Of a DNA stretch of 26,501 nt, positions 1 through 15,055 are shown one piece after another. A program made the position numbers and the translations under genes. The stretch covers positions 1-26,501 of IMG/VR virus record IMGVR_UViG_3300025869_000082; one strand, 5' to 3'. The notes below the pieces were generated by a model. The model did not search any database. It was not told the DNA's origin and was given only the letters and a program-made list of their open reading frames with translations. Positions within the stretch are counted from its first letter, which is position 1, and every line of letters starts with the position of its first letter. This DNA comes from a virus.

Positions 1-322
1 GGTATAGCACACGCTCGGTGGCAGTATATTTGTAGTACAACTCGCGACCGTATTTATCGACGCTCCATACTACATAGCGATCGGTTTTACGTTGTGGGTT
101 GATTTGGTACATCTTTAAAGAGCCGGTAGAATTGTTACGCACTGCATCAATATTACGCTGGCGTTGGCGTTTAAGGTAGAACCGACCGCGTTCGTCATCA
201 GTGAAACCTTTCATAGAGTGAGACACTCGAACATAACCGGTATCCGGGTATATGGCACCGATACGGCCATCACTAAGAATATAGTGTAAGTTACCCTGTT
301 TTGTTTTTTTAATGAATTTCAT
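1..322 (-). CDS. Small phage protein of unknown function, 3' end outside window
   Basis: An open frame starts with ATG at 320-322 and runs leftward off the window with no stop, giving 107 visible codons. The protein begins MKFIKKTKQGNLHYILSDG and contains a basic stretch (RFYLKRQRQRNID) around residues 50-62. I do not recognise the family. The frame lies 13 bases beyond a clear copy of the repeated minus-strand promoter element, with an A/T-rich leader and no Shine-Dalgarno, like its neighbours. That context makes it a real early-region gene. It is too long for this frame to be open by chance, and its start fits the spacing seen at the other units. Confidence 0.75.
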   Translation of the reverse strand, partial: MKFIKKTKQGNLHYILSDGRIGAIYPDTGYVRVSHSMKGFTDDERGRFYLKRQRQRNIDAVRNNSTGSLKMYQINPQRKTDRYVVWSVDKYGRELYYKYTATERVLY

Positions 323-335
323 AGTACTCGTTTTA

Positions 336-379
336 GTTACATTGATATTATCGATCGGTGGCCGTGTTAGTTTTGTAAG
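336..379 (-). promoter_or_regulatory. Repeated early promoter element, copy 1
   Basis: On the minus strand the three conserved blocks are TTACAAAAC, ACACGG and CGATAATATC, followed by ATGTAAC. There are 22 bases between TTACAA and TAATAT. It drives the partial gene 1-322. It directly abuts the stop codon of the gene at 380-610. This copy has one deviation (ATATC instead of ATATA). Confidence 0.75.
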
Positions 380-610
380 TTAGCCTTCTTCGCTAGTTAA
401 TTGGTACGCTTGCTCTCTATTGCAGTAGTACAAATCTTTCGTCCATAGTGCTGGTGTATATTGGTGCACCATATAGTTTACTTTATCTAAGTCGTGGCGT
501 GAGGAAACAAAGCTCACCGCATTTGGCATTTCAGTTTCGTCGTAGTCGTACAGGTATACTTGGCCGTTTGAGTAGTCAAGCACCGTAATGTATTTATAAG
601 GTCGGTTCAT
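380..610 (-). CDS. Small phage protein of unknown function (76 aa)
   Basis: A 76-residue acidic, tyrosine-rich protein. Its N-terminus (YITVLDYSNGQVYLYDYDE) has the look of a small beta-rich protein family found in many phages, in which a V-x-D-Y-x-x-G-x-V-Y core is followed by a short helical part. I base this on memory of similar sequences, not on a search. It starts two bases downstream of the stop of the 47-aa gene at 613-756. The two therefore form one unit read from promoter copy 2, probably with coupled translation. Function is unknown; the position among early genes suggests a host-takeover or regulatory accessory role. Confidence 0.75.
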   Translation of the reverse strand: MNRPYKYITVLDYSNGQVYLYDYDETEMPNAVSFVSSRHDLDKVNYMVHQYTPALWTKDLYYCNREQAYQLTSEEG

Positions 611-612
611 AA

Positions 613-756
613 TTACTTAATGTTTAGTGAATACTTTTTTACTGCCAACAACTCATCGTTGCTTAGGTCTTTTAGTTTCTTGTGGTACAACAGCGAGGCA
701 TTGAAGATTAGTCGACTCGGCCACACAGGTGCATTCATTATTTGTTCGTCAGTCAT
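613..756 (-). CDS. Small phage protein of unknown function (47 aa)
   Basis: ATG at 754-756, stop TAA at 613-615. The product is 47 residues, starts MTDEQIMNAPVWPSRLIF and ends KYSLNIK. The middle, with several Leu/Lys heptad-like positions (LLYHKKLKDLSNDELLAVKK), is probably helical. It is the first gene after promoter copy 2, with a leader of about 20 A/T-rich bases, and is followed two bases later by the 76-aa gene. The precise fit between promoter, start and next gene is the main support, as the frame is short. No function can be assigned. Confidence 0.65.
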   Translation of the reverse strand: MTDEQIMNAPVWPSRLIFNASLLYHKKLKDLSNDELLAVKKYSLNIK

Positions 757-767
757 AATACTTTTGT

Positions 768-809
768 TTTACGTTTATATTATCGATCGGTGCTCGTGTT
801 AATCTTGTA
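768..809 (-). promoter_or_regulatory. Repeated early promoter element, copy 2
   Basis: Minus-strand blocks ATACAAGAT, ACACGA and CGATAATATAA followed by ACGTAA, with the invariant 22-base spacing. It drives 613-756 and 380-610. Its upstream block overlaps the last codons and stop of the gene at 799-1029, so the stop codon lies inside the promoter. Confidence 0.78.
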
Positions 810-1029
810 TGTACCGTTTTATCTGACTAGCGTAAGCCCAATTAGAGTAGTCAGAGAAGCTCACCACAACATTACGGTCGTATACTTCGTCCCAATCAAC
901 TTCGTCAACGTGCTCACCGTACTTGTAGCCACCGGTAACTTCAATTTCTTCAACAGTCGCTACCTTACGCGGATCGCTACCGAAGCCACCTCGCCACCAT
1001 ACTTTATCACCTATCTTTAACTTACTCAT
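799..1029 (-). CDS. Small protein, possible SH3/KOW-like beta barrel (76 aa)
   Basis: A 76-residue protein starting MSKLKIGDKVWWRGGFGSD. The opening G-D-K-V-W-W-R-G-G followed by a V-A-T-V-E-E-I strand resembles small SH3- or KOW-like barrels, where the first two strands hold a GDxV turn. The fold is inferred from this pattern only. The start overlaps the stop of the upstream gene by four bases (ATGA), which indicates translational coupling within the unit read from promoter copy 3. The C-terminus (RYIQD, stop at 799) runs into promoter copy 2. Function unknown. Confidence 0.75.
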   Translation of the reverse strand: MSKLKIGDKVWWRGGFGSDPRKVATVEEIEVTGGYKYGEHVDEVDWDEVYDRNVVVSFSDYSNWAYASQIKRYIQD

Positions 1030-1226
1030 ACCTCAACGAATTTTAGGTTATACACGTGAGCATAGAAGCTATTTACGAAACCACTTGAACTCGACTTGTG
1101 CGGTGGTCGCATCGACTTAATAGTCGCCAACTCTCCGCGAAAACTCAATACCGTATCACCGATACCCTTCTCAACACCGGTGCTTTCACACACCAACTTT
1201 ACTTCTTTACCATTGTAGTTTTTCAT
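1026..1226 (-). CDS. Small protein, possible SH3-like, coupled to the next gene (66 aa)
   Basis: A 66-residue protein starting MKNYNGKEVKLVCESTGVEK. It contains alternating short hydrophobic strands and a G-D-T-V-L-S-F-R-G-E-L-A-T-I segment around residues 23-36. That resembles the GDxVxxRxxxxxI core of its neighbour at 799-1029, so the two may share a small beta-barrel fold or be distant duplicates. It is the first gene after promoter copy 3 and overlaps the next gene by ATGA. I do not recognise a named family. Confidence 0.7.
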   Translation of the reverse strand: MKNYNGKEVKLVCESTGVEKGIGDTVLSFRGELATIKSMRPPHKSSSSGFVNSFYAHVYNLKFVEV

Positions 1227-1247
1227 ACTATTTTTTTTTGTTTCTCA

Positions 1248-1290
1248 GTTACATTTATATTATCGATTCGGTATCGTGTTCATCTTGTAA
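1248..1290 (-). promoter_or_regulatory. Repeated early promoter element, copy 3
   Basis: Minus-strand blocks TTACAAGAT, ACACGA and CGATAATATAA followed by ATGTAAC, spacing 22. It is followed by a somewhat longer A-rich leader (about 29 bases with a run of A) before the ATG at 1226. It drives the pair 1026-1226 and 799-1029. Confidence 0.78.
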
Positions 1291-1358
1291 AAGCATATAC
1301 TTCATTTGTAAGAAAAAAAAGGAATACAGGTACTACTCAGCTCCTCTGTGTGTGGGGT

Positions 1359-1385
1359 AAAAAAAAAGAAGCTTTCGCTAGAAAG
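1359..1385 (-). terminator. Intrinsic terminator candidate, leftward
   Basis: On the minus strand a five-pair stem CTTTC/GAAAG with a four-base loop is followed within four bases by nine T. This is a typical rho-independent shape, though the stem is short. It lies between the end of the unit at 1632-1796 and promoter copy 3, where it would insulate the two units. Confidence 0.5.
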
Positions 1386-1462
1386 TGAGGATACTTGGGA
1401 AATAGTGACGTTAGCCTATTAAGTATACTACATAACACCCTATTGTCACTGTTTTATTTGGT

Positions 1463-1498
1463 AAAAAAAAGGTGAGAAACGCGAACCACCGGTGTTTC
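1463..1498 (-). terminator. Weak intrinsic terminator candidate, leftward
   Basis: Read leftward, arms GAAAC (1494-1498) and GTTTC (1476-1480) enclose 13 bases. Five bases later comes a run of eight T. A competing four-pair stem (1471-1474 with 1487-1490) overlaps it. It would end transcripts coming from 1632-1796. Confidence 0.3.
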
Positions 1499-1535
1499 TG
1501 CATACCGTTTTATTCGCTTCCGCCGACGTGCCGGT

Positions 1536-1557
1536 GTATAGCATAAAAACCTTTATG
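1536..1557 (-). repeat. Hairpin fused to CTATAC octamer, copy 1
   Basis: In minus sense, a perfect six-pair stem CATAAA/TTTATG with a four-base loop (1542-1557) is followed at once by CTATACACCGG. The octamer TGCTATAC is at 1536-1543 and overlaps the stem end. The same arrangement recurs at 1604-1626 and 2656-2675. Confidence 0.5.
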
Positions 1558-1603
1558 TAGGACGGAGTCTACTCTTCCGCTCTTATTTCAGGAGCAGGCC
1601 GGT

Positions 1604-1626
1604 GTATAGCAACCCCGCTAGGGGGT
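1604..1626 (-). repeat. Hairpin fused to CTATAC octamer, copy 2
   Basis: In minus sense, ACCCC/GGGGT arms with a five-base loop (1612-1626) are followed by TGCTATACACCGG. The hairpin begins five bases after the stop codon of the 54-aa gene at 1632, so it may mark the 3' end of that message. Confidence 0.5.
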
Positions 1627-1631
1627 GGGTG

Positions 1632-1796
1632 TTACCCTACTAATTCTATGTGCATTTTGTTTGCAGCGAATTTGATTAGTGCTTCGACGTAGTGCTGTTG
1701 ATCACCGTGCAGGTTGTCTATCATTCCTATCTCGTAGAAGTATCTGATAGCTTCATGGGCATCTGCGTGTAGTGATACGATTTCTTGTGGTTTCAT
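1632..1796 (-). CDS. Small helical protein of unknown function (54 aa)
   Basis: ATG at 1794-1796, stop TAA at 1632-1634. The product begins MKPQEIVSLHADAHEAIRYF and ends HIELVG. It is His- and acid-rich and probably two helices (about residues 4-26 and 31-50). It is a single-gene unit behind promoter copy 4, with a leader of about 20 A/T-rich bases. The promoter fit and a following hairpin support it as a real gene despite its size. No family recognised. Confidence 0.7.
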   Translation of the reverse strand: MKPQEIVSLHADAHEAIRYFYEIGMIDNLHGDQQHYVEALIKFAANKMHIELVG

Positions 1797-1811
1797 AGTA
1801 TTACTTTTTTA

Positions 1812-1855
1812 GTTACAGTTATATTATCGTTAGACAGTCGTACTGATCTTGTAAG
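1812..1855 (-). promoter_or_regulatory. Repeated early promoter element, copy 4
   Basis: Minus-strand blocks TTACAAGAT, GTACGA and CGATAATATAA followed by CTGTAAC, spacing 22. It drives 1632-1796. It overlaps the last eight codons and the stop of the gene at 1830-2033. Confidence 0.78.
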
Positions 1856-2033
1856 TCTTTATTAAGTCCTCAACATCGCTGTATAGCAACTCCCACTCGT
1901 TTTCAACAGACGTTTCAGAATCTGATATCTCCATTCGGAACAGGCTGTAGAAGTCGTTGATCTGGTCAGCCAGTGTTGGGTAGTCGTTTACTTGTCTTAC
2001 ACAGTACTCGTATGCTTCTGTTCTTGTATCCAT
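1830..2033 (-). CDS. Small acidic protein of unknown function (67 aa)
   Basis: A 67-residue acidic protein starting MDTRTEAYEYCVRQVNDYPT and rich in Glu/Asp. It is predicted helical by eye, with a conserved-looking E-W-E-L-L-Y-S-D segment near residue 48. That segment contains an in-frame TGCTATAC octamer (1881-1888). It starts four bases after the stop of the 70-aa gene at 2038-2250 and shares its promoter (copy 5). Its C-terminal codons double as promoter copy 4. Function unknown. Confidence 0.72.
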   Translation of the reverse strand: MDTRTEAYEYCVRQVNDYPTLADQINDFYSLFRMEISDSETSVENEWELLYSDVEDLIKTYKISTTV

Positions 2034-2037
2034 AGTA

Positions 2038-2250
2038 TTATAAGTATAGTTGGTCGCTGTGAATAATTTCGTTTATAGTATCGTAGAACTCATCGTTCGC
2101 TTGGTCGATTTCGGCATCAGTAGCAGATCGCCATTTGCCGTCTTCAAGAATAGATGCATCTTCAATATATGCGTCACAGAAGTCAGGGTAGTCATGCATG
2201 TAAATGCCGTCAATGTTTTCGATTGCAAAAGGTTTTCCATTTAGTTTCAT
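2038..2250 (-). CDS. Small acidic phage protein with DYPDFCDAYIE motif (70 aa)
   Basis: A 70-residue acidic protein. The central DYPDFCDAYIEDAS followed by E-D-G-K-W and a D-A-E-I-D-Q-A-N-D-E helix matches what I remember of a small family widespread in phages (DYPDFxDAYIxxA...DGxxLTxxELDxLN), whose role is not established. It is the first gene after promoter copy 5 and is followed closely by 1830-2033. The family resemblance is recalled, not searched. Start and leader are unambiguous. Confidence 0.78.
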   Translation of the reverse strand: MKLNGKPFAIENIDGIYMHDYPDFCDAYIEDASILEDGKWRSATDAEIDQANDEFYDTINEIIHSDQLYL

Positions 2251-2265
2251 AATATTCGTTTTGTA

Positions 2266-2308
2266 GTTACAGTTATATTATCGTACAGTTCCCGTATTAG
2301 TCTTGTAA
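2266..2308 (-). promoter_or_regulatory. Repeated early promoter element, copy 5
   Basis: Minus-strand blocks TTACAAGAC, ATACGG and CGATAATATAA followed by CTGTAAC, spacing 22. It drives 2038-2250 and 1830-2033. The upstream block encodes the last residues (LLQD) and stop of the gene at 2297-2521. Confidence 0.78.
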
Positions 2309-2521
2309 AAGATTCATTTGACGGATCGGGTCGAAAGTGATGTATAGCACACCGTCTTTCATTAGCATCTGGTCTTGTGTCCAGACGTCAACCAGGCCGT
2401 CCTGTACAACCACAGCGTGGTGAGGTAGTTCTGGTTTGTGCAGCACTGTGTATAGTGCAGAGATCAGGGTCATTGTTACAAGCGCTGTGAGCGCGATCAG
2501 TTGTAGGTTGTCTAGTTTCAT
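2297..2521 (-). CDS. Small single-pass membrane protein (74 aa)
   Basis: The chosen start (ATG at 2519-2521) follows the stop of the upstream 29-aa gene by one base (TAATATG). An alternative ATG at 2531-2533 would add MHTN and overlap that gene. Residues 4-25 (DNLQLIALTALVTMTLISALYT) form one hydrophobic segment, followed by about 48 polar residues rich in V-D-V-W and V-L-Y-I-T-F-D strands. The protein is probably anchored in the inner membrane with a short soluble domain. It pairs with another tiny membrane peptide just upstream. Early membrane peptides of this kind may modify the host envelope or exclude other phages; that is inference. Confidence 0.72.
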   Translation of the reverse strand: MKLDNLQLIALTALVTMTLISALYTVLHKPELPHHAVVVQDGLVDVWTQDQMLMKDGVLYITFDPIRQMNLLQD

Positions 2522-2522
2522 A

Positions 2523-2612
2523 TTAGTGTGCATGTATAAGGATTAAGGTTACAATGGTTACAGCTATCAGTACAATTACTGGTTCAGCATATTCAGTTAG
2601 TATTTGTTTCAT
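2523..2612 (-). CDS. Tiny membrane peptide, possibly leaderless (29 aa)
   Basis: ATG at 2610-2612, stop TAA at 2523-2525. The peptide starts MKQILTEYAEPVIVLIAVTI and ends LIHAH; residues 11-27 are continuously hydrophobic, so it is a single transmembrane helix. The start codon lies only four bases after the TAATATAA block of promoter copy 6, while the other nine units have leaders of roughly 20-30 bases. If that block is a -10 region, the message would begin at or next to the ATG. It sits one base ahead of the 74-aa membrane protein, so the two are likely made together. Confidence 0.6.
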   Translation of the reverse strand: MKQILTEYAEPVIVLIAVTIVTLILIHAH

Positions 2613-2613
2613 T

Positions 2614-2653
2614 CAGTTATATTATCGGTTGTTGATCGTATAGGTTTTGTAGG
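2614..2653 (-). promoter_or_regulatory. Repeated early promoter element, copy 6 (short leader)
   Basis: Minus-strand blocks CTACAAAAC, ATACGA and CGATAATATAA, spacing 22. The usual downstream YGTAAC is replaced by CTGAATG, where ATG is the start codon of the 29-aa peptide. It is directly preceded by a hairpin-CTATACA element. Confidence 0.72.
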
Positions 2654-2655
2654 TT

Positions 2656-2675
2656 GTATAGCACCCCGGAGGGTG
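2656..2675 (-). repeat. Hairpin fused to CTATAC octamer, copy 3
   Basis: In minus sense, CACCC/GGGTG arms with a four-base loop (2662-2675) are followed by CTATACAACC. The hairpin starts six bases after the stop codon of the gene at 2682-3011 and directly precedes promoter copy 6. No T-run follows, so it is not a standard terminator. Confidence 0.5.
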
Positions 2676-2681
2676 AGGGGC

Positions 2682-3011
2682 CTATTCGGCCACCTCAGTA
2701 CGCTCAAGCACTGCATCAGAGTGTCTCACAATCATGGGCATGTCAGTCGACTGCGACCAGTAGCCACGCTTTTGCCAGCAAGCTTGTAGCTTGAGTTTTG
2801 GCAACATGAGCTTGAGAGCTTCATCGTGGTTGTACGTTACACGTTGCTTTTTGTTGTTGACGAACGTTATGATTTGATTGCGTCCGTACCAGTTTTCACG
2901 CACTACGAAGTTCTTACGTTCGATTGGAGGGAATACTTTTGCTTTTTCAGCGTCTGACATTTTAGCGATTGCCTGACGTACGATTTCTTTGTTGTTCATT
3001 TCTTTTTTCAT
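2682..3011 (-). CDS. Small basic protein of unknown function (109 aa)
   Basis: A 109-residue Lys/Arg-rich protein starting MKKEMNNKEIVRQAIAKMSD; a second ATG at codon 5 is possible. An N-terminal helix (residues 6-30) is followed by a beta-rich part with an aromatic cluster (RENWYGRNQIITFVNNKKQR, then R-V-T-Y-N-H-D-E-A). The C-terminal half holds W-Q-K-R-G-Y-W. The basic, aromatic surface would suit nucleic-acid binding, but no known domain is recognised. It is a single-gene unit behind promoter copy 7. Confidence 0.75.
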   Translation of the reverse strand: MKKEMNNKEIVRQAIAKMSDAEKAKVFPPIERKNFVVRENWYGRNQIITFVNNKKQRVTYNHDEALKLMLPKLKLQACWQKRGYWSQSTDMPMIVRHSDAVLERTEVAE

Positions 3012-3025
3012 ATTACTTGTTTTTA

Positions 3026-3069
3026 GTTACGTTTATATTATCGTTTTAGTCTCGTATTGGTTTTGTAAG
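3026..3069 (-). promoter_or_regulatory. Repeated early promoter element, copy 7
   Basis: Minus-strand blocks TTACAAAAC, ATACGA and CGATAATATAA followed by ACGTAAC, spacing 22. It drives 2682-3011 and abuts the stop codon of the gene at 3070-3240. Confidence 0.78.
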
Positions 3070-3240
3070 TTACTTGTATAGCAGATTGAAGATTTTGATG
3101 TATTCAGAAGCGACGTCGTCGTCGATCAGATTTTTGCCTACGCTTGACAGCTGGTCGTATAGCACTCCGAATGTTGCATTTGCAAAGTCGTCTTTTCTAA
3201 ATAGTAGATAGTCTTGGAAGTTGATAATTGGTGGATTCAT
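3070..3240 (-). CDS. Small acidic protein of unknown function (56 aa)
   Basis: ATG at 3238-3240, stop TAA at 3070-3072. The product begins MNPPIINFQDYLLFRKDDFA and ends YIKIFNLLYK. It is rich in Asp and hydrophobics and probably helical. It contains two in-frame TGCTATAC octamers (GVLYDQ and FNLLYK). It is a single-gene unit with a 20-base A-rich leader behind promoter copy 8. No family recognised. Confidence 0.7.
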   Translation of the reverse strand: MNPPIINFQDYLLFRKDDFANATFGVLYDQLSSVGKNLIDDDVASEYIKIFNLLYK

Positions 3241-3254
3241 ATTATTTCTTTTTT

Positions 3255-3298
3255 GTTACACTTATATTATCGAAACTCCATCGTGTCGGTTTTGTAAG
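3255..3298 (-). promoter_or_regulatory. Repeated early promoter element, copy 8
   Basis: Minus-strand blocks TTACAAAAC, ACACGA and CGATAATATAA followed by GTGTAAC, spacing 22. It drives 3070-3240. Confidence 0.8.
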
Positions 3299-3307
3299 AA
3301 AATTGTA

Positions 3308-3391
3308 GGTATATAATACTAGGTATAAACACTAGGTATATTGTACTAGGTATAAAATGCTATGCACAAAATGCTATACATTTTGCTATAC
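3308..3391. repeat. Short tandem repeat cluster A
   Basis: Three consecutive ACTAGGTATA-type units, spaced by 15-16 bases, are followed by three units of TGCTATRCA type (two exact TGCTATAC at 3372-3379 and 3384-3391). Several contain TATAAT-like strings on the plus strand. A shorter relative lies at 4106-4150. The arrangement resembles iterons or a multi-site regulator region. Confidence 0.6.
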
Positions 3392-3398
3392 GCCTTGA

Positions 3399-3440
3399 GG
3401 CGCACAGGGCGCCAGGCTCGAAACCACACCTGGTCTTTTT
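3399..3440 (+). terminator. Two stacked hairpins with T-run, rightward terminator candidate
   Basis: GGCGC/GCGCC arms (3399-3413) with a five-base loop are followed by CCAGG/CCTGG arms (3412-3433) with a 12-base loop and then TCTTTTT. It has the shape of an intrinsic terminator on the plus strand. No plus-strand gene lies upstream, so it may end a small RNA starting in cluster A, or be fortuitous. Confidence 0.35.
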
Positions 3441-3641
3441 GCCGGATCCTCTCCGGTCATCTGTTCCGATATTAGTTCAGCACTGTTGCTGTCCCCTGTT
3501 ATGTGTACAGGATGCAGGTCCAGCCGTGGCACCAGGTTCTTATGTTGCTGGCCTCTGCGCGGATTAAGCTGCTAGGCTGTCCTGCTTGCAGTCTGTTTCG
3601 TTGGCTTGCTCCCGTGTCAAGCGACTGCTCCTGTTATGTTG

Positions 3642-3830
3642 TTACTTGTTCTTCTTCAAGAAGACGTCCAAGTACTTGGCCTCTGTATCTGGTTCATACA
3701 TCACATCCTCTTCAATCGCCATCTGATCCTCAAGGAAGTTTAGTAGTTGGTCCATGTTCTTTGGTCTGGTCGCAGACACACATAGGTAAAGGTCTTGTAG
3801 TAGGGCGAGGTTGTTGTCAGTAGTAGTCAT
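3642..3830 (-). CDS. Small acidic protein of unknown function (62 aa)
   Basis: The open frame extends further upstream, but the start is placed at ATG 3828-3830 because promoter copy 9 lies at 3844-3886, inside the longer frame. The product begins MTTTDNNLALLQDLYLCVSA and ends YLDVFLKKNK. It is Asp/Glu-rich with a probable helix through MDQLLNFLEDQMAIEED (residues 26-42). Single-gene unit; function unknown. Confidence 0.7.
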   Translation of the reverse strand: MTTTDNNLALLQDLYLCVSATRPKNMDQLLNFLEDQMAIEEDVMYEPDTEAKYLDVFLKKNK

Positions 3831-3843
3831 ATAGTTTCTTTTA

Positions 3844-3886
3844 GTTACATTTATATTATCGTCAGTCACTCGTGTCGGTCCTGTAG
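3844..3886 (-). promoter_or_regulatory. Repeated early promoter element, copy 9
   Basis: Minus-strand blocks CTACAGGAC, ACACGA and CGATAATATAA followed by ATGTAAC, spacing 22. This is the most divergent upstream block (CAGG). It abuts the stop codon of the gene at 3887-4042. Confidence 0.75.
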
Positions 3887-4042
3887 TTAGACCCGTTCCA
3901 TCCTGTAGTCTACCCACTCGATGCCGACCTCGTAGTCGATCTGTTCCATCTGTTCATCTGTCAGGTTCGCGTAGTTAGTCTTGTACTTGATGAGTGAGTA
4001 GTGGTTCGCGTTTTCGTTGAAGAACTGTGTGAATGTTATCAT
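3887..4042 (-). CDS. Small acidic protein of unknown function (51 aa)
   Basis: The frame is open further upstream, but the start is placed at ATG 4040-4042 because promoter copy 10 lies at 4059-4102. The product begins MITFTQFFNENANHYSLIKY and ends VDYRMERV, with an L-T-D-E-Q-M-E-Q-I-D helix in the middle. It is the outermost gene of the leftward block, next to the divergence region. Function unknown. Confidence 0.7.
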   Translation of the reverse strand: MITFTQFFNENANHYSLIKYKTNYANLTDEQMEQIDYEVGIEWVDYRMERV

Positions 4043-4058
4043 GTGTATTACTCTTTTG

Positions 4059-4102
4059 GTTACATATATATTATCGATACCATCTCGTGTCGGTTTTGTA
4101 AG
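4059..4102 (-). promoter_or_regulatory. Repeated early promoter element, copy 10
   Basis: Minus-strand blocks TTACAAAAC, ACACGA and CGATAATATA followed by TATGTAAC, spacing 22. It drives 3887-4042 and is the last copy before the rightward genes begin. Confidence 0.78.
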
Positions 4103-4105
4103 AAT

Positions 4106-4150
4106 GCTATATGCACAAACACCTAGGTATATACACCTATATGCTATACG
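4106..4150. repeat. Short repeat cluster B
   Basis: TGCTATATGCAC, CACCTAGGTATA, a near-palindrome TAGGT-6-ACCTA and an exact TGCTATAC (4142-4149) occur within 45 bases. The words are those of cluster A at 3308-3391. It lies directly upstream of promoter copy 10. Confidence 0.55.
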
Positions 4151-4192
4151 CTTGCAGCTCGCTGCCGCTCGCATGCACACAGCCAGGACCAG

Positions 4193-4279
4193 AGCCGGGA
4201 CCAGACCAGACCAGGGGAAAAGCCCGAACCGTGCACGGAAAACAGTTAGTCTGACCAGATCAGTAGCCGGGACCAGACC
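4193..4279. repeat. Exact 15-bp direct repeat in a GC-rich island
   Basis: AGCCGGGACCAGACC occurs at 4193-4207 and 4265-4279. Partial copies (GGACCAGA, GACCAGA) fill the interval, and a CCGTGAA doublet follows. The block is much richer in G+C than the surrounding DNA. Confidence 0.65.
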
Positions 4280-4445
4280 TGGAACCCGTGAACCGTGAAC
4301 CGGAAACCAGAATCAACAGGGGGGCTGGCCAAAAGAAATCAGTTTCCGTTTTGGGGTGTATCAATTATTTTATATATGTTACCCGTTAGTTCCCTGTATC
4401 TTACAAAAATTTTTTCAGTGGGGTGGACTAAAATTGGTTCATTTT

Positions 4446-4467
4446 AAAAAAAAAATTCCTTCGGAAT
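4446..4467 (-). terminator. Small hairpin with T10, leftward terminator candidate
   Basis: In minus sense, ATTCC/GGAAT arms with a three-base loop (4455-4467) run into ten T. The stem is only five pairs, so strength is doubtful. It would stop leftward read-through before the early units. Confidence 0.35.
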
Positions 4468-4471
4468 AAAA

Positions 4472-4507
4472 TTAACTACGGGGTAGTGTGACGATAGGGT
4501 ATATAAT
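4472..4507 (+). promoter_or_regulatory. Candidate plus-strand promoter for the rightward genes
   Basis: TTAACT (4472-4477), 22 bases, then TATATAAT (4500-4507). The 22-base spacing equals that of the ten minus-strand elements, but the middle ACACG block is absent. A start codon follows 18 bases further on (4526). Confidence 0.35.
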
Positions 4508-4525
4508 AATAAACATAGCTACCTA

Positions 4526-4588
4526 ATGTCGCATGTTAAGTGTTTGCGCGTGTGCGTAATCATACAAGGTATGATCGTAACAAGCTAA
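4526..4588 (+). CDS. Candidate 20-codon leader peptide
   Basis: ATG at 4526 and TAA at 4586-4588, giving MSHVKCLRVC followed by VIIQGMIVTS. The stop is two bases before the ATG of the next gene. The A/T-rich lead-in and position behind the candidate promoter would suit a leader or coupling peptide. The frame is short enough to be chance, so this is tentative. Confidence 0.25.
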   Translation: MSHVKCLRVCVIIQGMIVTS

Positions 4589-4590
4589 TA

Positions 4591-4872
4591 ATGTATAAAA
4601 AAGGAATCGGACCCAACTCATTAGGATCACCTCTAAAACAAGTGATGTCTAGCGATGAAATAAACCAAGCATTGCGCACTAAAAGAGAGAAAACAGGCAC
4701 AGGGGGTATTAAAATGGACAATACTCTAGTGGGTTTACCTGGCATAGGTACGGTTGCGAAGGCGGGCATAAGAAAAGCGGCTTCAAAGACGGCTGGCAAA
4801 TGGACGGGTAGAAAAACAGGTGCTATTGCCGATGCCACCGTACAGTTACACGGATTAGTTTCAGGGAAATAA
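4591..4872 (+). CDS. Small basic protein with SPLKQ motif (93 aa)
   Basis: The frame also has an upstream GTG at 4540, but the ATG at 4591 behind AAGCTAATA is preferred. The 93-residue protein carries SPLKQ at residues 13-17. It then has a Gly/Ala/Lys-rich middle (GLPGIGTVAKAGIRKAASKT) that could be an amphipathic or membrane-active helix, and a basic GKWTGRKTG segment. SPLKQ recurs in the next gene and in the gene at 19262-20803, a hint of shared localisation or a shared binding partner. It lies directly upstream of the tail-fibre array; role unknown, possibly a minor virion protein. Confidence 0.75.
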   Translation: MYKKGIGPNSLGSPLKQVMSSDEINQALRTKREKTGTGGIKMDNTLVGLPGIGTVAKAGIRKAASKTAGKWTGRKTGAIADATVQLHGLVSGK

Positions 4873-4874
4873 AC

Positions 4875-5165
4875 ATGTTTAATATGCCAAATTCACCTTT
4901 AAAGCAGAAATTATCGCCGGAAGCTGCAAAGGCTAAGGCAGAGAGAGACCTCAGGTATGCGAAATCGCCTGCACGTAGGGCTAAAAAGGCTGATTCTCAG
5001 GCACAACGGCGCGCTGCTAAGAAAAATGGGCGCAGTATTGAGGGTATGGACTTCGATCACAGGACAAATCGCTTCGTTTCGGTGGCTGCAAACCGTGGGA
5101 ACAGGGGCGAAGGCACGAAAAAAGAAGGAAACAAGAACTATAAGGTAAAACGTCGAAATGGCTAG
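4875..5165 (+). CDS. Small highly basic protein with SPLKQ motif (96 aa)
   Basis: A 96-residue Lys/Arg/Ala-rich protein starting MFNMPNSPLKQKLSPEAAKA. SPLKQ sits at residues 7-11 and KSPARRAKK follows near residue 30. The rest is mostly a charged helix and a basic tail ending YKVKRRNG. It is likely disordered or helical and could bind DNA inside the virion. It starts two bases after the previous stop and overlaps the next gene by eight bases, so all three are one operon. No named family recognised. Confidence 0.78.
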   Translation: MFNMPNSPLKQKLSPEAAKAKAERDLRYAKSPARRAKKADSQAQRRAAKKNGRSIEGMDFDHRTNRFVSVAANRGNRGEGTKKEGNKNYKVKRRNG

Positions 5166-5856
5166 ATTAAATACGTATACTACAGATACTGATGTAGCCG
5201 GTAATGACAAAGTATTAGGTACCGATATTGGCGGTGCTACTAAAAACTACCCACTTAAGAAGATTGGGGAGTATTTTGCAAATAAAAGTGTAATTACTTC
5301 AGAGGGCCAGTTGTCTTTCAGACATATAGTGGGCTTATCGGACCGCTTAAAAGGAGATTTTTGGGTGGGGGACAGCAATTCTGTTGTGCAGCTGGCGGAT
5401 GTAAGGAGTTTTACAATAAGTAAACACATGCTAGAAGACAGCCTTGACGTGAGCCACATGCTGAGTACCATTATAGCTAGCAAATTTGTTATTGTAGAAG
5501 TAGGCAACCCTAACGTACGTGGAGAATACTTCGTTACAAGCTCATACGACTATGAAGATGACAATAACTTTATTGTTGTAGACGTTACTGCTGTAAATAC
5601 TAACGGGAGTCTCACAGACGAGGCTTATTACGTATTTAGTAATACCACAACTGCGGGTGCGGACAAAAAGTACACTCATACGCAATCCTCAGCAGCAGCT
5701 ACATGGACAATAACACACAATTTAGATAAACAACCCGCTGTATCCGTAGTGGACAGCACTGAAAATGTAATTATATGTGAGGTTGAGTATACCTCTTTAA
5801 ATCAAGTAGAACTAAGGTTCTCCACTCCATACTCTGGAAAAGCCTATTTTAACTAA
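5158..5856 (+). CDS. Tail fibre or receptor-binding protein (232 aa)
   Basis: The N-terminus (MARLNTYTTDTDVAGNDKVL, then GTDIGGATKNYPLKKIGEY) is the kind of short adaptor seen on phage fibre proteins. The C-terminal 60 residues hold a sandwich-like domain with YTHTQSSAAATWTITHNLDK, then a V-S-V-V-D-S strand, and end FSTPYSGKAYFN. I recognise this as a common distal domain of marine phage fibres. The middle (residues 60-170) is not recognised. As first of five fibre-type genes it may be a connector or short fibre. The role is inferred from domain style and neighbours. Confidence 0.75.
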   Translation: MARLNTYTTDTDVAGNDKVLGTDIGGATKNYPLKKIGEYFANKSVITSEGQLSFRHIVGLSDRLKGDFWVGDSNSVVQLADVRSFTISKHMLEDSLDVSHMLSTIIASKFVIVEVGNPNVRGEYFVTSSYDYEDDNNFIVVDVTAVNTNGSLTDEAYYVFSNTTTAGADKKYTHTQSSAAATWTITHNLDKQPAVSVVDSTENVIICEVEYTSLNQVELRFSTPYSGKAYFN

Positions 5857-5880
5857 ACAAGAAACAAAAACAAAAAAACA

Positions 5881-7281
5881 ATGGCATTAAAGATTGTATC
5901 GGGGTTAGACGCAACGAGCATAAGTCTCTCCTCATTTTTAGATTTACAGAAGAACGAGCTCCGGAGCGCACAGATTCATAACCTCAACTCTACGCAGATT
6001 GCTGGCATTACGTCACCTGCTTCAGGTCAGTTTGCTTATGATACTACGCTTAACAAATTAAAAGTATATAACGGTACCGCATGGGAACTAGTTGGCGCTT
6101 CTGCTGATGAGACTAGTATTACTCTTAGCAGTAACACTCTTTCTATTAAAGCATTTGGTGTAGCTACCGGGCTCATTGCTAACCTTGCAGTTACTTCTGG
6201 TAAACTAGCAGATGGCGCGGTTGGTACTGCAAAACTTGCTACCGATGCGGTTAGTACAATAAAAATTGCAGACGCTCAGGTTACAACAGATAAACTTGCA
6301 ACCGATGCAGTAACAGCAGCTAAAATTGCAGACAACTCGGTAGATATTGCACGATTGAATGTTACTGATGGATCTAACGGTCAATTCTTAAAAACGGACG
6401 GTTCTGGAACTTTATCATTTGCAACACCAGTAGATGACAGTGTATCAGGAACAAACTTAACAGCTACACTTGCAGCATTAGATACTACACACGCTGAAAA
6501 CGTACACGGCACTGGAGCGACAACTATTATTATTGGCTCAAGCACTAATACTCCAGACGTACAAGTAACTGGAGACTTTATCGTTGATGGTGATTTAACT
6601 GTAGCTGGAACAACTACAACAATCAACTCTACTACGGTAACCGTTGACGATCCAATCTTTACTCTTGGTGGTGATACAGCTCCTACAGCTGATGACAACA
6701 AAGACCGTGGTATTGAATTCCGTTACCATAATGGAACTGAAGCTTTTGTTGGTTTCTACGGATACGATGATAGTCAAGAGGCTTTTGTATTCTTAACTGA
6801 TGCAACCAATAATTCCGAAGTATTTGCGGGAACTAACGGAAATATCATAATTGGTCAGATAGACATCAAGACTGCTTCTGGTCTTAAGCTAAATAATGTT
6901 GCAGTTACTTCAACTGCTGCGGAACTTAACATTTTGGATGGTGTTACGGCTACGGCTTCAGAACTTAACATCCTTGACGGAGTTACTGCTACTACAACAG
7001 AGCTTAACTACGTAGATGGTGTTACATCTGCAATTCAAGCGCAGCTTGACTCTAAACCAGTAGCGTACGCCGCATCGGTTACAACATCTTCAGGTACAGC
7101 TACTATTGCACACTCAGCACACGGGTTAACATTCCCTGCTAATGTTCAGGTGTATGACGAAAATGGCCAGTTAGTGTTAGTTGACATACGTCAAACGGTT
7201 TCTGGTGGTGAAATGACAATAACAATTAACGCCCCGGACGCAACATACAATGTTATTGCAGTTGGAGCTGCGGCTTCGTAA
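5881..7281 (+). CDS. Tail fibre protein with repeat stalk (466 aa)
   Basis: The gene starts MALKIVSGLD after an A-rich leader. Residues 49-72 carry GQFAYDTTLNKLKVYNGTAW, a module frequent in fibres. Residues 105-160 are five ten-residue repeats of the AKLATDAVT/AKIADNSVD kind. Residues 345-383 are three 13-residue repeats (xAELNILDGVTA; DNA 6913-7029). Such repeats form trimeric stalks. The C-terminal 80 residues form a probable knob. No S74 chaperone domain is present, so trimerisation must rely on the repeats or on another protein. It is followed by a strong hairpin. Confidence 0.85.
   Translation: MALKIVSGLDATSISLSSFLDLQKNELRSAQIHNLNSTQIAGITSPASGQFAYDTTLNKLKVYNGTAWELVGASADETSITLSSNTLSIKAFGVATGLIANLAVTSGKLADGAVGTAKLATDAVSTIKIADAQVTTDKLATDAVTAAKIADNSVDIARLNVTDGSNGQFLKTDGSGTLSFATPVDDSVSGTNLTATLAALDTTHAENVHGTGATTIIIGSSTNTPDVQVTGDFIVDGDLTVAGTTTTINSTTVTVDDPIFTLGGDTAPTADDNKDRGIEFRYHNGTEAFVGFYGYDDSQEAFVFLTDATNNSEVFAGTNGNIIIGQIDIKTASGLKLNNVAVTSTAAELNILDGVTATASELNILDGVTATTTELNYVDGVTSAIQAQLDSKPVAYAASVTTSSGTATIAHSAHGLTFPANVQVYDENGQLVLVDIRQTVSGGEMTITINAPDATYNVIAVGAAAS
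6193..6360 (+). repeat. Five ten-codon repeats in fibre stalk
   Basis: Five ten-codon units encode the pattern [ST]x[KR][LI]A[DT]xxV. DNA copies differ at many third positions. Confidence 0.8.
6913..7029 (+). repeat. Three 39-bp coding repeats in fibre
   Basis: Units at 6913-6951, 6952-6990 and 6991-7029 encode TAAELNILDGVTA, TASELNILDGVTA and TTTELNYVDGVTS. Confidence 0.9.
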
Positions 7282-7312
7282 GCTAATTATACCTAAATTA
7301 GTGTAATAATAA

Positions 7313-7346
7313 AAAGGGGGAGGGAGTTTGATCTTCCTTCCCCTTT
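7313..7346 (+). terminator. Strong hairpin between two fibre genes
   Basis: A 14-pair stem (7313-7326 with 7333-7346, including G-U pairs) has a six-base loop and sits in the 80-base gap before the next fibre gene. Flanks are A-rich upstream and TTTATTAATT downstream, so it is terminator-like without a clean T-run. It may allow partial read-through and set relative fibre levels. Confidence 0.65.
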
Positions 7347-7361
7347 ATTAATTAATATAAT

Positions 7362-10316
7362 ATGGCATTAAAGTTATTAGGTTCCCTAGAGTCATCAGGA
7401 GGCAACGTAGGTATTGGGGCCACTGATCCTGGAACTAAGTTAGAGGTAAATAGTGGTGGAACAGGTGCAGCAGCAAGGTTTACTGGAACTGCAAACTTTA
7501 GTGAAATTTACTTAGGAAGCAACGGAGTACAGTCTCAGTACACTAATATAGTATGGTATACAAATAATGGTAATGCTCAGATTTGGAAAGCAGGTACAGC
7601 GTATACAGCAGCAGGCGGAGCTGGGGCTTTAAACATATACAACAGCAACGGTAATATATCATTTCACCCTGCTGGGCAGTTTAATGCGATGACCATTGAT
7701 AGTTATACAAACGTTGGTATTGGAAGTACCGCACCTGCTGCTAAATTAAACGTTGCTTCAACTGGAGCTAACGCTTATTCAAGTACTATAACTAAGGGTA
7801 CCAATATGAAGGGAATAATAAACGTCCTTTCAAGTAATGCTGACGATATGGTTGGTATTTATTTTGGTACTGGTGTAACTTCAGAGGGAACTCACTGGAG
7901 TGGTATAACAGGTTCAAGAAGTCAGAATGGTGTTGACTGGAGTACTCAATTAAACTTTTACACCCACGATGAAAACGTTTCAAACCTAAACGATGCCACC
8001 CAAAAAATGGTCATTAAGGGTAGTGGCAACGTAGGTATCGGGACTACTAGTCCTCAGCAGAAGTTACATATAAAATCTACAACATCTGGACCAACAGGTA
8101 TTATTATTGAAAATACAAATAATGCTCAAAGTTTAGATTTAGATTTTTGGAGTAATGCAGGTGCTGCTCAAGGGAGAATTAGGTATAATGAAGGTGCTGG
8201 TTCTTTTGATTTTAGCCCTAACGTTGGAGCTGGCTCTGCTATGACAATGTTATACACCGGCAATGTAGGTATTGGCACTACTAGTCCAGCTTACAAATTA
8301 GATGTAAACGGAGGCATACAGTTAAACGGGAAATCCGCACTTACCGATAATGCTTACTTTGTAGGATCACCATCTTACGGTTTTAGATGGAACAACTCTG
8401 CTGATACATTTAACAACGTCATAATGTATGACAACGGTAATATGTATGTTAGAGGCAACGTAGGCATTGGTACTACTAGTCCTGCGGATAAACTACACGT
8501 ATCAGGAGGTAATATTAGACTTGACAATGGTGCAGGTGATGGGTTTATAAAAGACTCTGCTGGTAATGATAGATTCTATTTTGGCACTGGTACATATTTA
8601 AATTCAAATACAGGAGGTCCAGTTGCATTCCAAGTAGCAGGCAGTGAAAAAATGCGTGTTAATTACAATGGCAACGTAGGTATTGGTACAACTAATCCGG
8701 AACAAAAATTACACGTTGAAGGCGCGATTCAACTTGGAAATACCGAAGACCTTGCGTGGGCTTATGATAATGGTTCTTATTACAATTATATAACAAACTT
8801 TTACAATACGTCAAATGGTATGACGTTTAGAGCCGGAAGTTGGACTAGTGGAAACAACATAGATTTTTGTTTTCAAACTTATTACGGGGGTAGTTGGTCT
8901 ACAAAGTTGGCAATAAGAGGTGACGGCTACGTAGGTATCGGGACGGCTAGTCCAGCCACAAAACTACAGGTAGACGGTGTAATCACCGCAACTGGCGGTA
9001 ATTCTACAGACTGGAACACCGCTTACGGCTGGGGTAATCACGCAGGATTATATGATGCGGCAGGTAGTGCGGGTGCGGTCGATCTTCGCATAGAAGAAGA
9101 AGTATTACCCGCTATAGATGCCAAGTTAGATGCTACTGCTAAAGCAGCAGATTCTGAATTACTTGATGGTTTAGATAGTAGTTCTTTTGTAAGAAGTGAC
9201 GCAACAGATACTCTTAATGGTCACTATACTTTTTTATATAATTCTGGCATAATAGATTCTGCACAGCCTGGTTATACACAGGGTGCTATTGAAATTGAAA
9301 CAACTGACAACAATACACCTGCAATTGGATTTCATAGAGGTGGTTATTCTGCTACAGCATTGTATGAATATGACGGTCAATTATATGTAAATCCTTGGGT
9401 AGACAGAGCACAAGAAGGTCTTCTTTTATCTTCTGGTAATATTAGCGCCTATGCAGACGCAGCCGGTGCTGCTGCAGTAGTAAACACTCGTATTGAAGAA
9501 GAAATATTACCGGCTATAGATACCGTATCTAGCAGTATACCTACGAACAACAACCAGCTAACAAATGGCGCCGGGTATATTACAGATGGTAACACTAATT
9601 GGAATAACACATACGGATTTATAGCAAGGGGTGATACACAAAACCCTGGCTCTTGGCCTGAGGCTACAAAGTTTAAATCTACAGGGGATATTGGTACTGA
9701 TACATCTAGCAATCACTCTCTGCAAATTTATGCTGACGAAGGAACTGATGCATTTATGGCATTTCATATTAGTAATGACTATGCTGTTTTCTTGGGATTA
9801 GAAAATGATACTAATAGGCTATATACAGGTGGATGGTCACTTGGTAATATTAAACATCAAATTTGGGATAGTAGAGATTTTAGTTCCACTAATATTTCTA
9901 ACTGGAACACAGCATACGGTTGGGGTAACCACGCTGGTTACGGATACTGGGTATTGGATAATGCTGAACCAAAAAACGTACAAGCAGAAACGGTAACCTT
10001 TATAGGTAGTGTAACAGTAGAAGGAACATTCACTGAATCTTCTTCTATCCGCTTCAAGGAGAACATCACTTCGCTAGACCCAGCATTAGACAAAGTAAAC
10101 CAATTAGAGGCTGTCTCCTACAATAAGATTGGGGTAGATGACCGAGAAATTGGTTTGATTGCAGAAGATGTAGCAGAGCTGTTCCCAGAGGTTGTAACAT
10201 ACAACGAGGAAGGACAGCCTCAGGGTATCCAATACCAGCGCCTGAGCGTAATTTTGCTTAAGGCTATGCAAGAATTATCACAAGAAGTAAACGAGCTAAA
10301 AAAGAAACTGAACTAA
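7362..10316 (+). CDS. Long tail fibre with S74 intramolecular chaperone (984 aa)
   Basis: The body holds seven copies of a NVGIGTTSPxxKLxV module (first bases at 7401, 7707, 8025, 8259, 8454, 8670, 8925). Two WNTAYGWGNHAG modules and two R-I-E-E-E-[VI]-L-P-A-I-D modules follow. This is typical of a long trimeric fibre shaft. The C-terminus (residues about 893-984) is a peptidase S74 / endosialidase chaperone domain: SSSIRFKENI, then L-E-A-V-S-Y-N-K, I-G-L-I-A-E-D-V and a closing coiled coil. Such domains fold the trimer and then cut themselves off. The candidate Ser/Lys pair (SSIRFK) is kept, but the usual Asp after the Ser is Ser here. This is probably a main host-range determinant. Confidence 0.92.
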   Translation: MALKLLGSLESSGGNVGIGATDPGTKLEVNSGGTGAAARFTGTANFSEIYLGSNGVQSQYTNIVWYTNNGNAQIWKAGTAYTAAGGAGALNIYNSNGNISFHPAGQFNAMTIDSYTNVGIGSTAPAAKLNVASTGANAYSSTITKGTNMKGIINVLSSNADDMVGIYFGTGVTSEGTHWSGITGSRSQNGVDWSTQLNFYTHDENVSNLNDATQKMVIKGSGNVGIGTTSPQQKLHIKSTTSGPTGIIIENTNNAQSLDLDFWSNAGAAQGRIRYNEGAGSFDFSPNVGAGSAMTMLYTGNVGIGTTSPAYKLDVNGGIQLNGKSALTDNAYFVGSPSYGFRWNNSADTFNNVIMYDNGNMYVRGNVGIGTTSPADKLHVSGGNIRLDNGAGDGFIKDSAGNDRFYFGTGTYLNSNTGGPVAFQVAGSEKMRVNYNGNVGIGTTNPEQKLHVEGAIQLGNTEDLAWAYDNGSYYNYITNFYNTSNGMTFRAGSWTSGNNIDFCFQTYYGGSWSTKLAIRGDGYVGIGTASPATKLQVDGVITATGGNSTDWNTAYGWGNHAGLYDAAGSAGAVDLRIEEEVLPAIDAKLDATAKAADSELLDGLDSSSFVRSDATDTLNGHYTFLYNSGIIDSAQPGYTQGAIEIETTDNNTPAIGFHRGGYSATALYEYDGQLYVNPWVDRAQEGLLLSSGNISAYADAAGAAAVVNTRIEEEILPAIDTVSSSIPTNNNQLTNGAGYITDGNTNWNNTYGFIARGDTQNPGSWPEATKFKSTGDIGTDTSSNHSLQIYADEGTDAFMAFHISNDYAVFLGLENDTNRLYTGGWSLGNIKHQIWDSRDFSSTNISNWNTAYGWGNHAGYGYWVLDNAEPKNVQAETVTFIGSVTVEGTFTESSSIRFKENITSLDPALDKVNQLEAVSYNKIGVDDREIGLIAEDVAELFPEVVTYNEEGQPQGIQYQRLSVILLKAMQELSQEVNELKKKLN

Positions 10317-10317
10317 T

Positions 10318-13300
10318 ATGGCAAATCTTTTAAGTACCACTGTAAATGGAAGTCTTCTTGCATTAAACAATGGTGTAACAAATGCTTATACTACCGCCTC
10401 AAACGGAAGACTTTACCTAGGCTCAAATGCCCAGAATGATTACTCCATCTATACACATATGGAGAACTTTGGCGGCAATTACACCAAGTTGACCTTAGAC
10501 TGGCACACTGGTATTAAAATTGGAGCTAGTCAGACATACGGAGGCATTCGCTTTTATGGCGATGCTATTAACAACGGCGGTGTAAAGTTGTTTTCTGTAG
10601 GTGAGGGTGATGCTCACGTTAGAGTAGAAAATAATCTTTACGTTGGTAATACTATTTTCAATAATGGTAATGCTGTTATCCACACAGGTAACATCGGTAG
10701 CCAATCTGTAGCATCTGCTAGCCAAGTAAGCGGTGTGTCTGTCTCTGCTACAGAGATGAACAGACTTAAGACAACCTTAGGTGTTACGGGTCTTCCATAT
10801 TCTTGTGATATTTTTGTAGAAGGAGACCCAGACACATACTACCCTGTTCACTTTATTTGGGGTGACCAGGATATTTGGCGTAGAATTATTATCAAGCGAG
10901 GCTATAGTGAACAAGCGCCTTGGGACCCCATTGGAACTGGTGTGCACCACGGTGGTCTTCTTATAGATTGGGAAGGAAACTTTGGTGGCTGGGGAGGAGC
11001 TGAATACTCTGATAGACTTAGAGTATTTCAAGAATCTTACACTACAATCTGTGCTGATATGTACAGAACTACTCACTCTATGGGATACACTTTCTTCTTA
11101 AGAGGCGGTGGGGCTGTTTATCACATTTACTCTGACCAAAACATTCGTGGGTATCACCAGGATGGATTTCCAGATATTGCATATGATACTAACTTTAAGT
11201 TTTACGATAGTGCAACTCCAGCTTACATAGTCTACGCTCCAGCTCCATTAACTACTATAAACTCATCTCGTATTGATGGTCTTCGTACAAAGAAGCAATC
11301 ACAATTTGATGGTAGATACCAGCAGTCTGGTACAGCAATCAACACTGGTAACATCGGAAGTCAATCAGTAAACTATGCAGCATCCGCAGGAAATGCAGAT
11401 ACTGTAGGTGGATATAGTCCTATAATAGCCTACGGAAGCAATGATGTTAGAGGTAGAGTATTGGTAGCTGACCCTGGGAGTGGTAATATATCAACACGCA
11501 ACCCTGAGCTATATTCTGGTGAAGTAAGACTTGGAGCTGCTTGGGATAGAGGAGGCGTGTTTGCTGAGGGTGTACTTTCCTTGTCTACAAGTAGTTCCCA
11601 AATTGATTTTGTATTTAGTAATACAAGAGGAGCAACTGTTGCCGAAGATGGTAATATTTATATGTCTTGGGCTGGTGCTTGGTTATCTACACTTCTTGAT
11701 GCCAAACAAAACGCTTCTACTGCTATTAACACCGGTAACATTGGTTCTCAGTCTGTTTCTTACGCTAATAATTCTGGAAACTCAGCTACTACATCACAAA
11801 GAGACTTTAGTGGAGACGTATCTACTAGTGGTATGGGCCGCTTTGCTGGATGGTATACTGGTAACGCTCAAACTGGACTTGCTGCTGAAATAGGGGTGTC
11901 TGCTGGACAGGCTTACATTATAGCTTACAATAGACAAAGCGGAGCTTACGGAACTCTAAATCTAGAGTCAACAGGTACTAATTTAAGGATTAGTGGAAGT
12001 ACGGTTAACGTAACAAGCGGAACTCTTCAGCAGGGAGGAAATAACGTAATACACGCAGGAAACATAGGTAGCCAGTCTGTAAGTTATGCAACTAGTGCTG
12101 GAAACTCTAACAACACGTCACAGATAGCTTTTACTGACCTTAAAGGAAACTTCCCATCTGGAAGTGGTGGAGGACATAGTTTTGCCCCCAACCATTACTC
12201 TATGGGTCTTGACGTTGGTAATGGTGGATGGGATCATCCGCATTATAGAGATTTAATTATCGGATATCATACTGGTGTCCGCATAGGAGCAAACTATTCG
12301 GGTATTCGTTTTTACAACAACTCACCAACGACAGATGCAAACAACGACGGAAATGGAGATGGTGAAGAGGCATTGTTGATGACAATTGGTGGATATGTTG
12401 GTACGGCAAGCCAAACTGACGTTGTTGTAAACAACAACTTGTTTGCCAACGGGTCAATGCGCGCGCCAATATTCTACGATTCTGATAACACTAACTACTA
12501 CTTAAACCCAGCAGGAGGTTCTCGTTTAAGAAACCTTTACGTGGGAGATAGTGGAGATGATTGGTCAGACCCAGGGTCATGGGGTACTCAAGTAAGATTT
12601 AGTAACGAACCTCACGTAAAGTTTGTACTACACGCTCGTACTCCAGGTATTGAAGCAGGTATGTATGTGCATACCCCAGGCTCGGTATTTATGGGCAGTT
12701 ATACAGCGCATGTTCTTAGTTTAATGTATGCTGGAAACATGAGAATGCAAGTAGAAGATAGTAGAATATATTCTAATGTATACATGGAATCTGCAAGTTC
12801 AATGCGTGCTCCAATATTCTATGACTCTGCGGATACTGGATATTATCTAGACCCAAACGGGACATCTAACCTGCTAAAGCTTAGTGATAGGACTATGGGA
12901 TTCAATGGCATGAATCCAATGTCTGCAAACTCACCATACGAGCCTAGATACAATGCAAGTGTAAACTACCGCACTGGAAGTATGGGGTATGGAACGGTTG
13001 GTTTAAATGCTATTGGTTCAAACTGGGGTTCAGGATTTATTGATTCTTGGAGTTCTCCTGCTGAGCAACCAAACACCACCACTTCACACTGGGTTGGATT
13101 GCAATCAATACATTACGGACATCAGGATTCTACCAATTTTTATGGGTTTCAAATGGTGTCTGGAGCAGACACAAATAGATTTTATTTAAGAGCAGCTTGG
13201 CCAACGCCGTTATCTTGGGTAGAAGTTATTACTTCTGGCAACATTGGAAGTCAGTCTGTAAACTACGCGTCTTCTGCGGGTGCAGTAGAGTGGAGTAACG

Positions 13301-14608: not shown

Positions 14609-14652
14609 TACAAGTATTTTAACTATTTTTACAAACATAAAACAAAAACAAA

Positions 14653-15012: not shown

Positions 15013-15018
15013 GACAAC

Positions 15019-15051
15019 TTGACAGATTATTCTGTTTTGGTATTATATTTG
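15019..15051 (+). promoter_or_regulatory. Flavobacterial-type promoter
   Basis: TTGACA at 15019-15024 and TATATTTG at 15044-15051 give TTG-N22-TAnnTTTG, the Bacteroidetes/flavobacterial consensus as I know it. The same site also reads as TTGACA-N16-TATTAT. It starts the unit at 15082 onward, differs completely from the ten left-arm elements, and is the best sign of the host group. Confidence 0.7.
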
Positions 15052-15055
15052 CATT

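Follow-up and report, generated by a model that had tools for sequence, protein, structure and literature searches.

Phage regulons served by a sigma factor of the phage itself are already known in kind, from phiEco32 and 7-11 (PMC8948821) and from SPO1 and T4 (PMC9429907). Below we report the analysis of ten short elements on the minus strand of the IMG/VR virus record IMGVR_UViG_3300025869_000082, which are highly likely to be promoters of such a regulon. The window, that is, the whole stretch of DNA analysed, is the complete virus record of 26,501 bases, itself a genome fragment without the regulator gene. In phiEco32 and 7-11 the sigma factors, gp36 and gp47 respectively, send the host polymerase to phage promoters having a private consensus (PMC8948821). 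The system studied here is alike in combining a phage sigma factor, encoded in related genomes, with several putative phage promoters of their own consensus. The promoters of phiEco32 and 7-11, however, belong to middle and late genes and are built from a single block (tAATGTAtA) or from two (GTAAtg-16-aCTA), whereas the elements here have three blocks without spacing slack, lie on the early/replication strand and belong to phages of presumed Bacteroidota hosts. In SPO1, gp28 and gp34, and in T4, gp55, control phage gene classes (PMC9429907). Their targets are middle and late genes, and their hosts and promoter sequences are other than here. In the late transcription of both phages a small co-factor (gp33 in SPO1 and gp33 in T4) works with the sigma factor; the helix-turn-helix (HTH) protein co-encoded with the sigma factor in the relatives of the window is comparable to it in arrangement. 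What appears to be new is a sigma subfamily without close match in the phage collection, a promoter of three rigidly spaced blocks, the use of such promoters on the early strand, and their occurrence in Bacteroidota phages.

Ten copies of a three-block element

The window opens with ~4.1 kb that form the beginning of the strand holding the small genes and replication genes, hereafter the early strand. Within positions 336-4101 its minus strand carries ten copies of the pattern TTACAARACYAAYACGR-N8-CGATAATATAA(YGTAAC), and their in-register alignment gives TTACAARACYAAYACGR-N8-CGATAATATAAMTGTAACTAAAA. An earlier reading made from the DNA letters alone (the sequence-only reading) had proposed ten minus-strand elements, and all of them are found, the sixth spanning 2610-2652 where 2614 had been given. 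The copies and the open reading frames (ORFs) behind them, with lengths in amino acids (aa), are as follows.

336..378, minus strand: putative promoter copy 1, upstream of a leftward ORF starting at 322 and cut by the window end
768..810, minus strand: putative promoter copy 2, upstream of ORF 613-756 (47 aa), then ORF 380-610 (76 aa)
1248..1290, minus strand: putative promoter copy 3, upstream of ORF 1026-1226 (66 aa), then ORF 799-1029 (76 aa)
1812..1854, minus strand: putative promoter copy 4, upstream of ORF 1632-1796 (54 aa)
2266..2308, minus strand: putative promoter copy 5, upstream of ORF 2038-2250 (70 aa), then ORF 1830-2033 (67 aa)
2610..2652, minus strand: putative promoter copy 6, without YGTAAC, followed by a 29-aa ORF (2523-2612), then ORF 2297-2533 (78 aa)
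3026..3068, minus strand: putative promoter copy 7, upstream of ORF 2682-3011 (109 aa)
3255..3297, minus strand: putative promoter copy 8, upstream of ORF 3070-3240 (56 aa)
3844..3886, minus strand: putative promoter copy 9, upstream of ORF 3642-3830 (62 aa)
4059..4101, minus strand: putative promoter copy 10, upstream of ORF 3887-4042 (51 aa)

TACA, ACG and CGATAATAT are invariant in all ten copies, while CGATAATATAA is exact in eight and YGTAAC is present in eight. The interval between TTACAA (or its variant) and TAATAT, said to be constant at 22 nucleotides (nt), is so in every copy. The window has seven exact matches to TTACAA-N20-24-TAATAT, where dinucleotide shuffles lead one to expect 0.09, and the position matrix built from the ten copies finds these ten only in the window and none in reversed controls. 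The copies also precede small leftward genes, as had been read: an ATG-started ORF of at least 29 aa begins 14-38 nt past the G of GATAAT in all ten. Among these, ORF 2682-3011 behind copy 7 has a homologue in the early region of relatives; a PHROG search of the small downstream proteins gave nothing informative. The shortest distance belongs to copy 6, whose ATG lies 14 nt past the G of GATAAT, with the start codon overlapping the 3' end of the copy. The missing of YGTAAC in this copy is due to the start codon of the 29-aa ORF, which occupies that place, and the transcript would probably be almost leaderless. Since copy 6 dispenses with it, YGTAAC is more likely a transcript start than a recognition block.

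The promoter type expected in the host is that of flavobacterial sigma-A (TTG ... TAnnTTTG), in which the primary sigma factor uses TAnnTTTG at -12 to -5 (PMC9723704); the phage motif has GATAATA instead, in a fixed three-block layout. A sequence fitting the host type, as the sequence-only reading had pointed out, stands at 15019-15052 (TTGACA...TATATTTG), ahead of an 84-aa ORF at 15082, and is likely a flavobacterial sigma-A promoter. The mismatch of the ten elements to sigma70, also claimed there, holds for the 20-nt gap and the added middle block, but not for GATAATA itself, which is sigma-70-family-like. Sigma-70-like matches in window positions 1-16200 are at chance level, with 40 observed vs 40.7 expected.

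The motif and a sigma-70-family gene in related phages

Among the genes of the window are those for tail fibre proteins, GroEL, a GroES-like protein and the large terminase. The terminase has its relatives, within the phage collection, in Flavobacterium Elemovirus, in Cellulophaga, Tenacibaculum and Maribacter phages and in the uncultured MW202828, which points very probably to a member of the Flavobacteriia as host of the window phage. The related genomes are ~60-70 kb long, with structural genes on one strand and the small genes and replication genes on the opposite one; the replication region is not within the window's 26.5 kb. The closest of ten full-length relatives, G003, has 61% mean identity over shared proteins and carries the sigma gene described below.

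On the whole, the motif is present in dozens of uncultured phage contigs of ~60 kb, on one strand of the early region. A strict pattern matches 83 stretches of viral contigs in IMG/VR, and a looser one matches 27 of 30 full records, always on one strand per record, with the reversed pattern matching none. The matrix scan of related contigs, suggested in the sequence-only reading, recovers the motif in ten near-complete relatives, with 6-14 early-strand copies each, single weak matches on the opposite strand and 0 in controls. Equal frequency of the matrix inside gene bodies had been named beforehand as evidence to the contrary; the frequency is not equal, nearly all copies being on the early strand and near ATGs. 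For 113 copies from the ten relatives and the window, an ATG-started ORF begins at a median of 32 nt from GATAAT; in 88% it is no more than 60 nt away, as compared with 28% of positions drawn at random from the same regions. The spacing is equally strict in the 80 loci that carry the sigma gene: of 273 distinct sites, 270 have 9 nt between AYACGR and GATAATA, and for TTACAA the 20-nt spacing to GATAATA is seen 173 times while every other spacing occurs at most three times. Sigma-70 promoters normally tolerate about one base of spacing slack. In the literature, as far as it was covered in part, no description of this motif was found.

Ten relatives share an early-strand gene whose product of ~253 aa has sigma-70 regions 2 and 4, and this protein is a member of the sigma-70 family. 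It matches Pfam Sigma70_r2 (5.8e-7, 29.7 bits, cut-off 24) and Sigma70_r4 (9.5e-6, 25.5 bits, cut-off 24.1) as well as the PHROG sigma factor family (2.2e-22), and all 54 members tested match NCBIfam TIGR02937, the member examined here with 59.3 bits vs a cut-off of 42.9. Its AlphaFold model has a mean pLDDT of 78.5, being weak at 148-171, and the 50 PDB matches listed for the model are all sigma subunits. The protein is a predicted sigma factor, which would bind the core RNA polymerase and direct initiation. Some features recall FliA/sigma-28, which has the consensus TAAAGTTT-n11-GCCGATAA, containing GATAA (PMC2859248): GATAA is in the -10 element, the lengths are close (~239 aa vs 253) and 1rp3 is the top PDB sequence match. 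The difference is in the other -35 region and in the AAYACGA block, which is additional in the phage motif. This is a resemblance and not a membership, because the scores with the FliA/WhiG models are far below the cut-offs (TIGR02479, 33.4 vs 189.6; NF005413, 30.2 vs 201); the same member is below every cut-off of the narrower NCBIfam subfamilies. Overall, relatives of the sigma factor are encoded by 418 viral-contig stretches, while the sole match among 50,697 phage records is 24% identical. In bacterial genomes the family is found on ten short contigs of metagenome-assembled genomes only, probably binned phage DNA. One record, IMGVR_UViG_3300047157_000162, has 129,537 bases, about twice the usual size, and two different sigma genes at 20760 and 83045, 62 kb apart; it is probably two phage genomes merged during assembly.

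The sigma gene is found in 24 of 35 records searched, including every sufficiently complete motif-bearing relative, while MW202828, Elemovirus, phi38:1, phi18:3 and Gundel_1 have neither motif nor sigma gene. In four records (G017, G023, G025 and G026) the motif is present but the sigma gene is not, and in each of them the motif copies adjoin a contig end. Looking from the side of the sigma gene, 72 of the 80 loci have the motif, with 417 copies on the strand of the sigma gene vs 3 on the opposite strand, and the eight loci without it all have less than 2.5 kb of sequence upstream of the gene. The nearest upstream copy is at a median of ~2.6 kb over all loci. This distribution is in accordance with the dedicated reader that the sequence-only reading proposed, be it a transcription factor, a sigma-like protein or a phage RNA polymerase. 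Of the regulators to be looked for outside the window, a sigma gene is thus at hand in the relatives, but a phage RNA polymerase was not detected, in a family search that had no positive control.

In 73 of the 80 loci, a gene for a protein of ~206 aa with a C-terminal HTH precedes the sigma gene, the ends often overlapping. The model of this protein is confident (mean pLDDT 87.8), with no PDB match at E <= 0.001. Most relatives have a palindrome of 43 bp, TGACRWTAGC...GCTAWYGTCA, across the start codon of the HTH gene, and in several of them further copies are found at the early/late junction and within the early region. It is counted 22 times in the window and the ten relatives, with 0 in reversed controls and 0 in MW202828 and Elemovirus. 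The window has two copies.

4489..4531, strand not assigned: palindrome of 43 bp where the early and late strands diverge, a candidate operator for the HTH-sigma circuit
1406..1448, strand not assigned: second copy of the 43-bp palindrome, within the early region of the window

The palindrome is a candidate operator, by which the HTH protein would control its own operon and the early/late junction.

Candidate readers of the motif

The ten elements are, with high likelihood, promoters of an early/middle regulon for the host core RNA polymerase equipped with the phage sigma-70-family factor. Since the motif family recurs in dozens of phages that also carry the sigma gene, the phage very probably redirects the host RNA polymerase to its early genes through a private promoter code. 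The sigma gene of the window phage would lie beyond the fragment, further along this leftward region, at whose downstream end the relatives carry it. GATAATA would be the -10 element (G-12 A-11 T-10 A-9 A-8 T-7 A-6, numbered by analogy). In this numbering a -35-type element, TTACAAA, would span about -38 to -32, and an extra block with a rigid place in the spacer, AAYACGA, about -28 to -22. Transcripts would start around the GTAAC of YGTAAC and have leaders of ~20 nt. The sigma factor would be produced from a two-gene operon with the HTH protein, and in some phages a motif copy directly ahead of its gene would provide positive feedback, which is likely in the 12 of 70 loci that have a copy 12-15 nt ahead of the sigma ATG. 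In 405 copies GATAATA is almost invariant, with the equivalent of A-11 in 405 and that of T-7 in 402, as expected for the -10 element of the sigma-70 family; this is supportive rather than independent evidence, because the matrix partly selects the -10 anchor.

Several observations weigh against this assignment. The co-occurrence is drawn from related phages and so is not fully independent, and many other genes likewise set the motif-bearing clade apart from Elemovirus. When the variable positions of the motif are compared with residues of the sigma factor or the HTH protein, mutual information gives no clear signal, in a comparison confounded by descent that does not tell the sigma reading from its rivals, and the window ends short of the place of the sigma gene. 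If the sigma factor serves most early promoters, a producer of the first sigma is needed, and its promoter did not emerge; the palindrome could hold it. A late role of the sigma factor through another promoter type is conceivable, since no second motif was recognised ahead of late genes. A ATTATATTATAT leader is shared ahead of one structural gene, as a single conserved site.

The main rival is an injected, virion-borne phage RNA polymerase, with the motif as its promoter and the sigma factor serving another, probably late, gene class. Such systems are known, and a giant protein co-occurs with the motif here. N4, the crAss-like phi14:2 and P23-45 are alike in having a multi-copy motif before small early genes and a giant protein in the virion cassette, and for P23-45 a like co-occurrence of motif and enzyme is reported (PMC10770324). 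In the motif-bearing phages, the copies crowd ahead of small early genes, and the structural cassette ends with a protein of ~2,500-3,000 aa (L169:1316-10345, equal to G001:21116-30145, and homologues), without blastp match in MW202828 or Elemovirus; a virion polymerase would moreover answer who transcribes first. We nevertheless regard it as unlikely. The giant protein has neither a Pfam or PHROG polymerase match nor a conserved DxDxD or HD motif, and no polymerase in the PDB matches its sequence. Conserved in its aligned members are HExxH and DFDDT instead, and it is probably a multidomain ejected protein. A search with PF00940 for RNA polymerase had no match, which is weak evidence because the control genomes gave no match either, and a diverged single-subunit or two-barrel enzyme might escape these searches. 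Unlike in N4, phi14:2 and P23-45, a sigma gene accompanies the motif and no polymerase signature was detected, and GATAATA with its near-invariant equivalents of A-11 and T-7 is the kind of element that a sigma factor reads.

More improbable still is that the host polymerase with its primary sigma factor reads the elements, aided by a phage activator, for example the HTH protein, binding TTACAA and/or AAYACGA. The conserved position of the HTH protein beside the sigma factor would agree with it, and the middle block presumably sits where an activator of the MotA kind, as in T4, could. But the host -10 box TAnnTTTG is absent from the motif and not enriched ahead of early genes, which makes this reading less likely, and for the HTH protein the palindrome at its own start codon is the better candidate site. 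That the elements are operators, or recombination or packaging repeats, instead of promoters is hardly credible: the TTACA and TGTAA ends do resemble an inverted repeat, but the copies point one way and keep a fixed position relative to start codons. The inverted-repeat reading was dropped because the two arms vary independently, TTACA being found in 59% of copies with TGTAA and in 54% without.

Returning to the sigma-read promoters, the HTH protein may contact one of the three blocks. A shared recognition at every promoter, in which the sigma factor would read GATAATA with one upstream block and the HTH protein the other, is possible but rather doubtful; such a two-protein complex would explain the absence of spacing slack among the three blocks. 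Taken together, sigma factor and motif look like the complete sigma and promoter code of a widespread, uncultured group of Bacteroidota phages. The motif may serve as a marker for phage early genes, and the pair as a candidate system for expression apart from flavobacterial promoters. The pair also offers a clear test case for the way in which a sigma factor can depend on three blocks with fixed distances between them.

Further features of the early region

Two stretches of ~340 bases in the early region of the window, 1291-1631 and 3298-3641, are without convincing ORFs and without Rfam match, and the Rfam search of window positions 1-5000 had no match overall. On the minus strand, TATACCTAG forms short direct repeats at 3306-3370 and 4110-4136, just upstream of the putative promoter copies at 3255 and 4059. 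In addition, TGCTATAC, often as TGCTATACAC, has eight minus-strand copies at 9, 1543, 1611, 1888, 2349, 2663, 3083 and 3164. These repeats lie in both coding and non-coding sequence, and the early strand is the richer one in most relatives.

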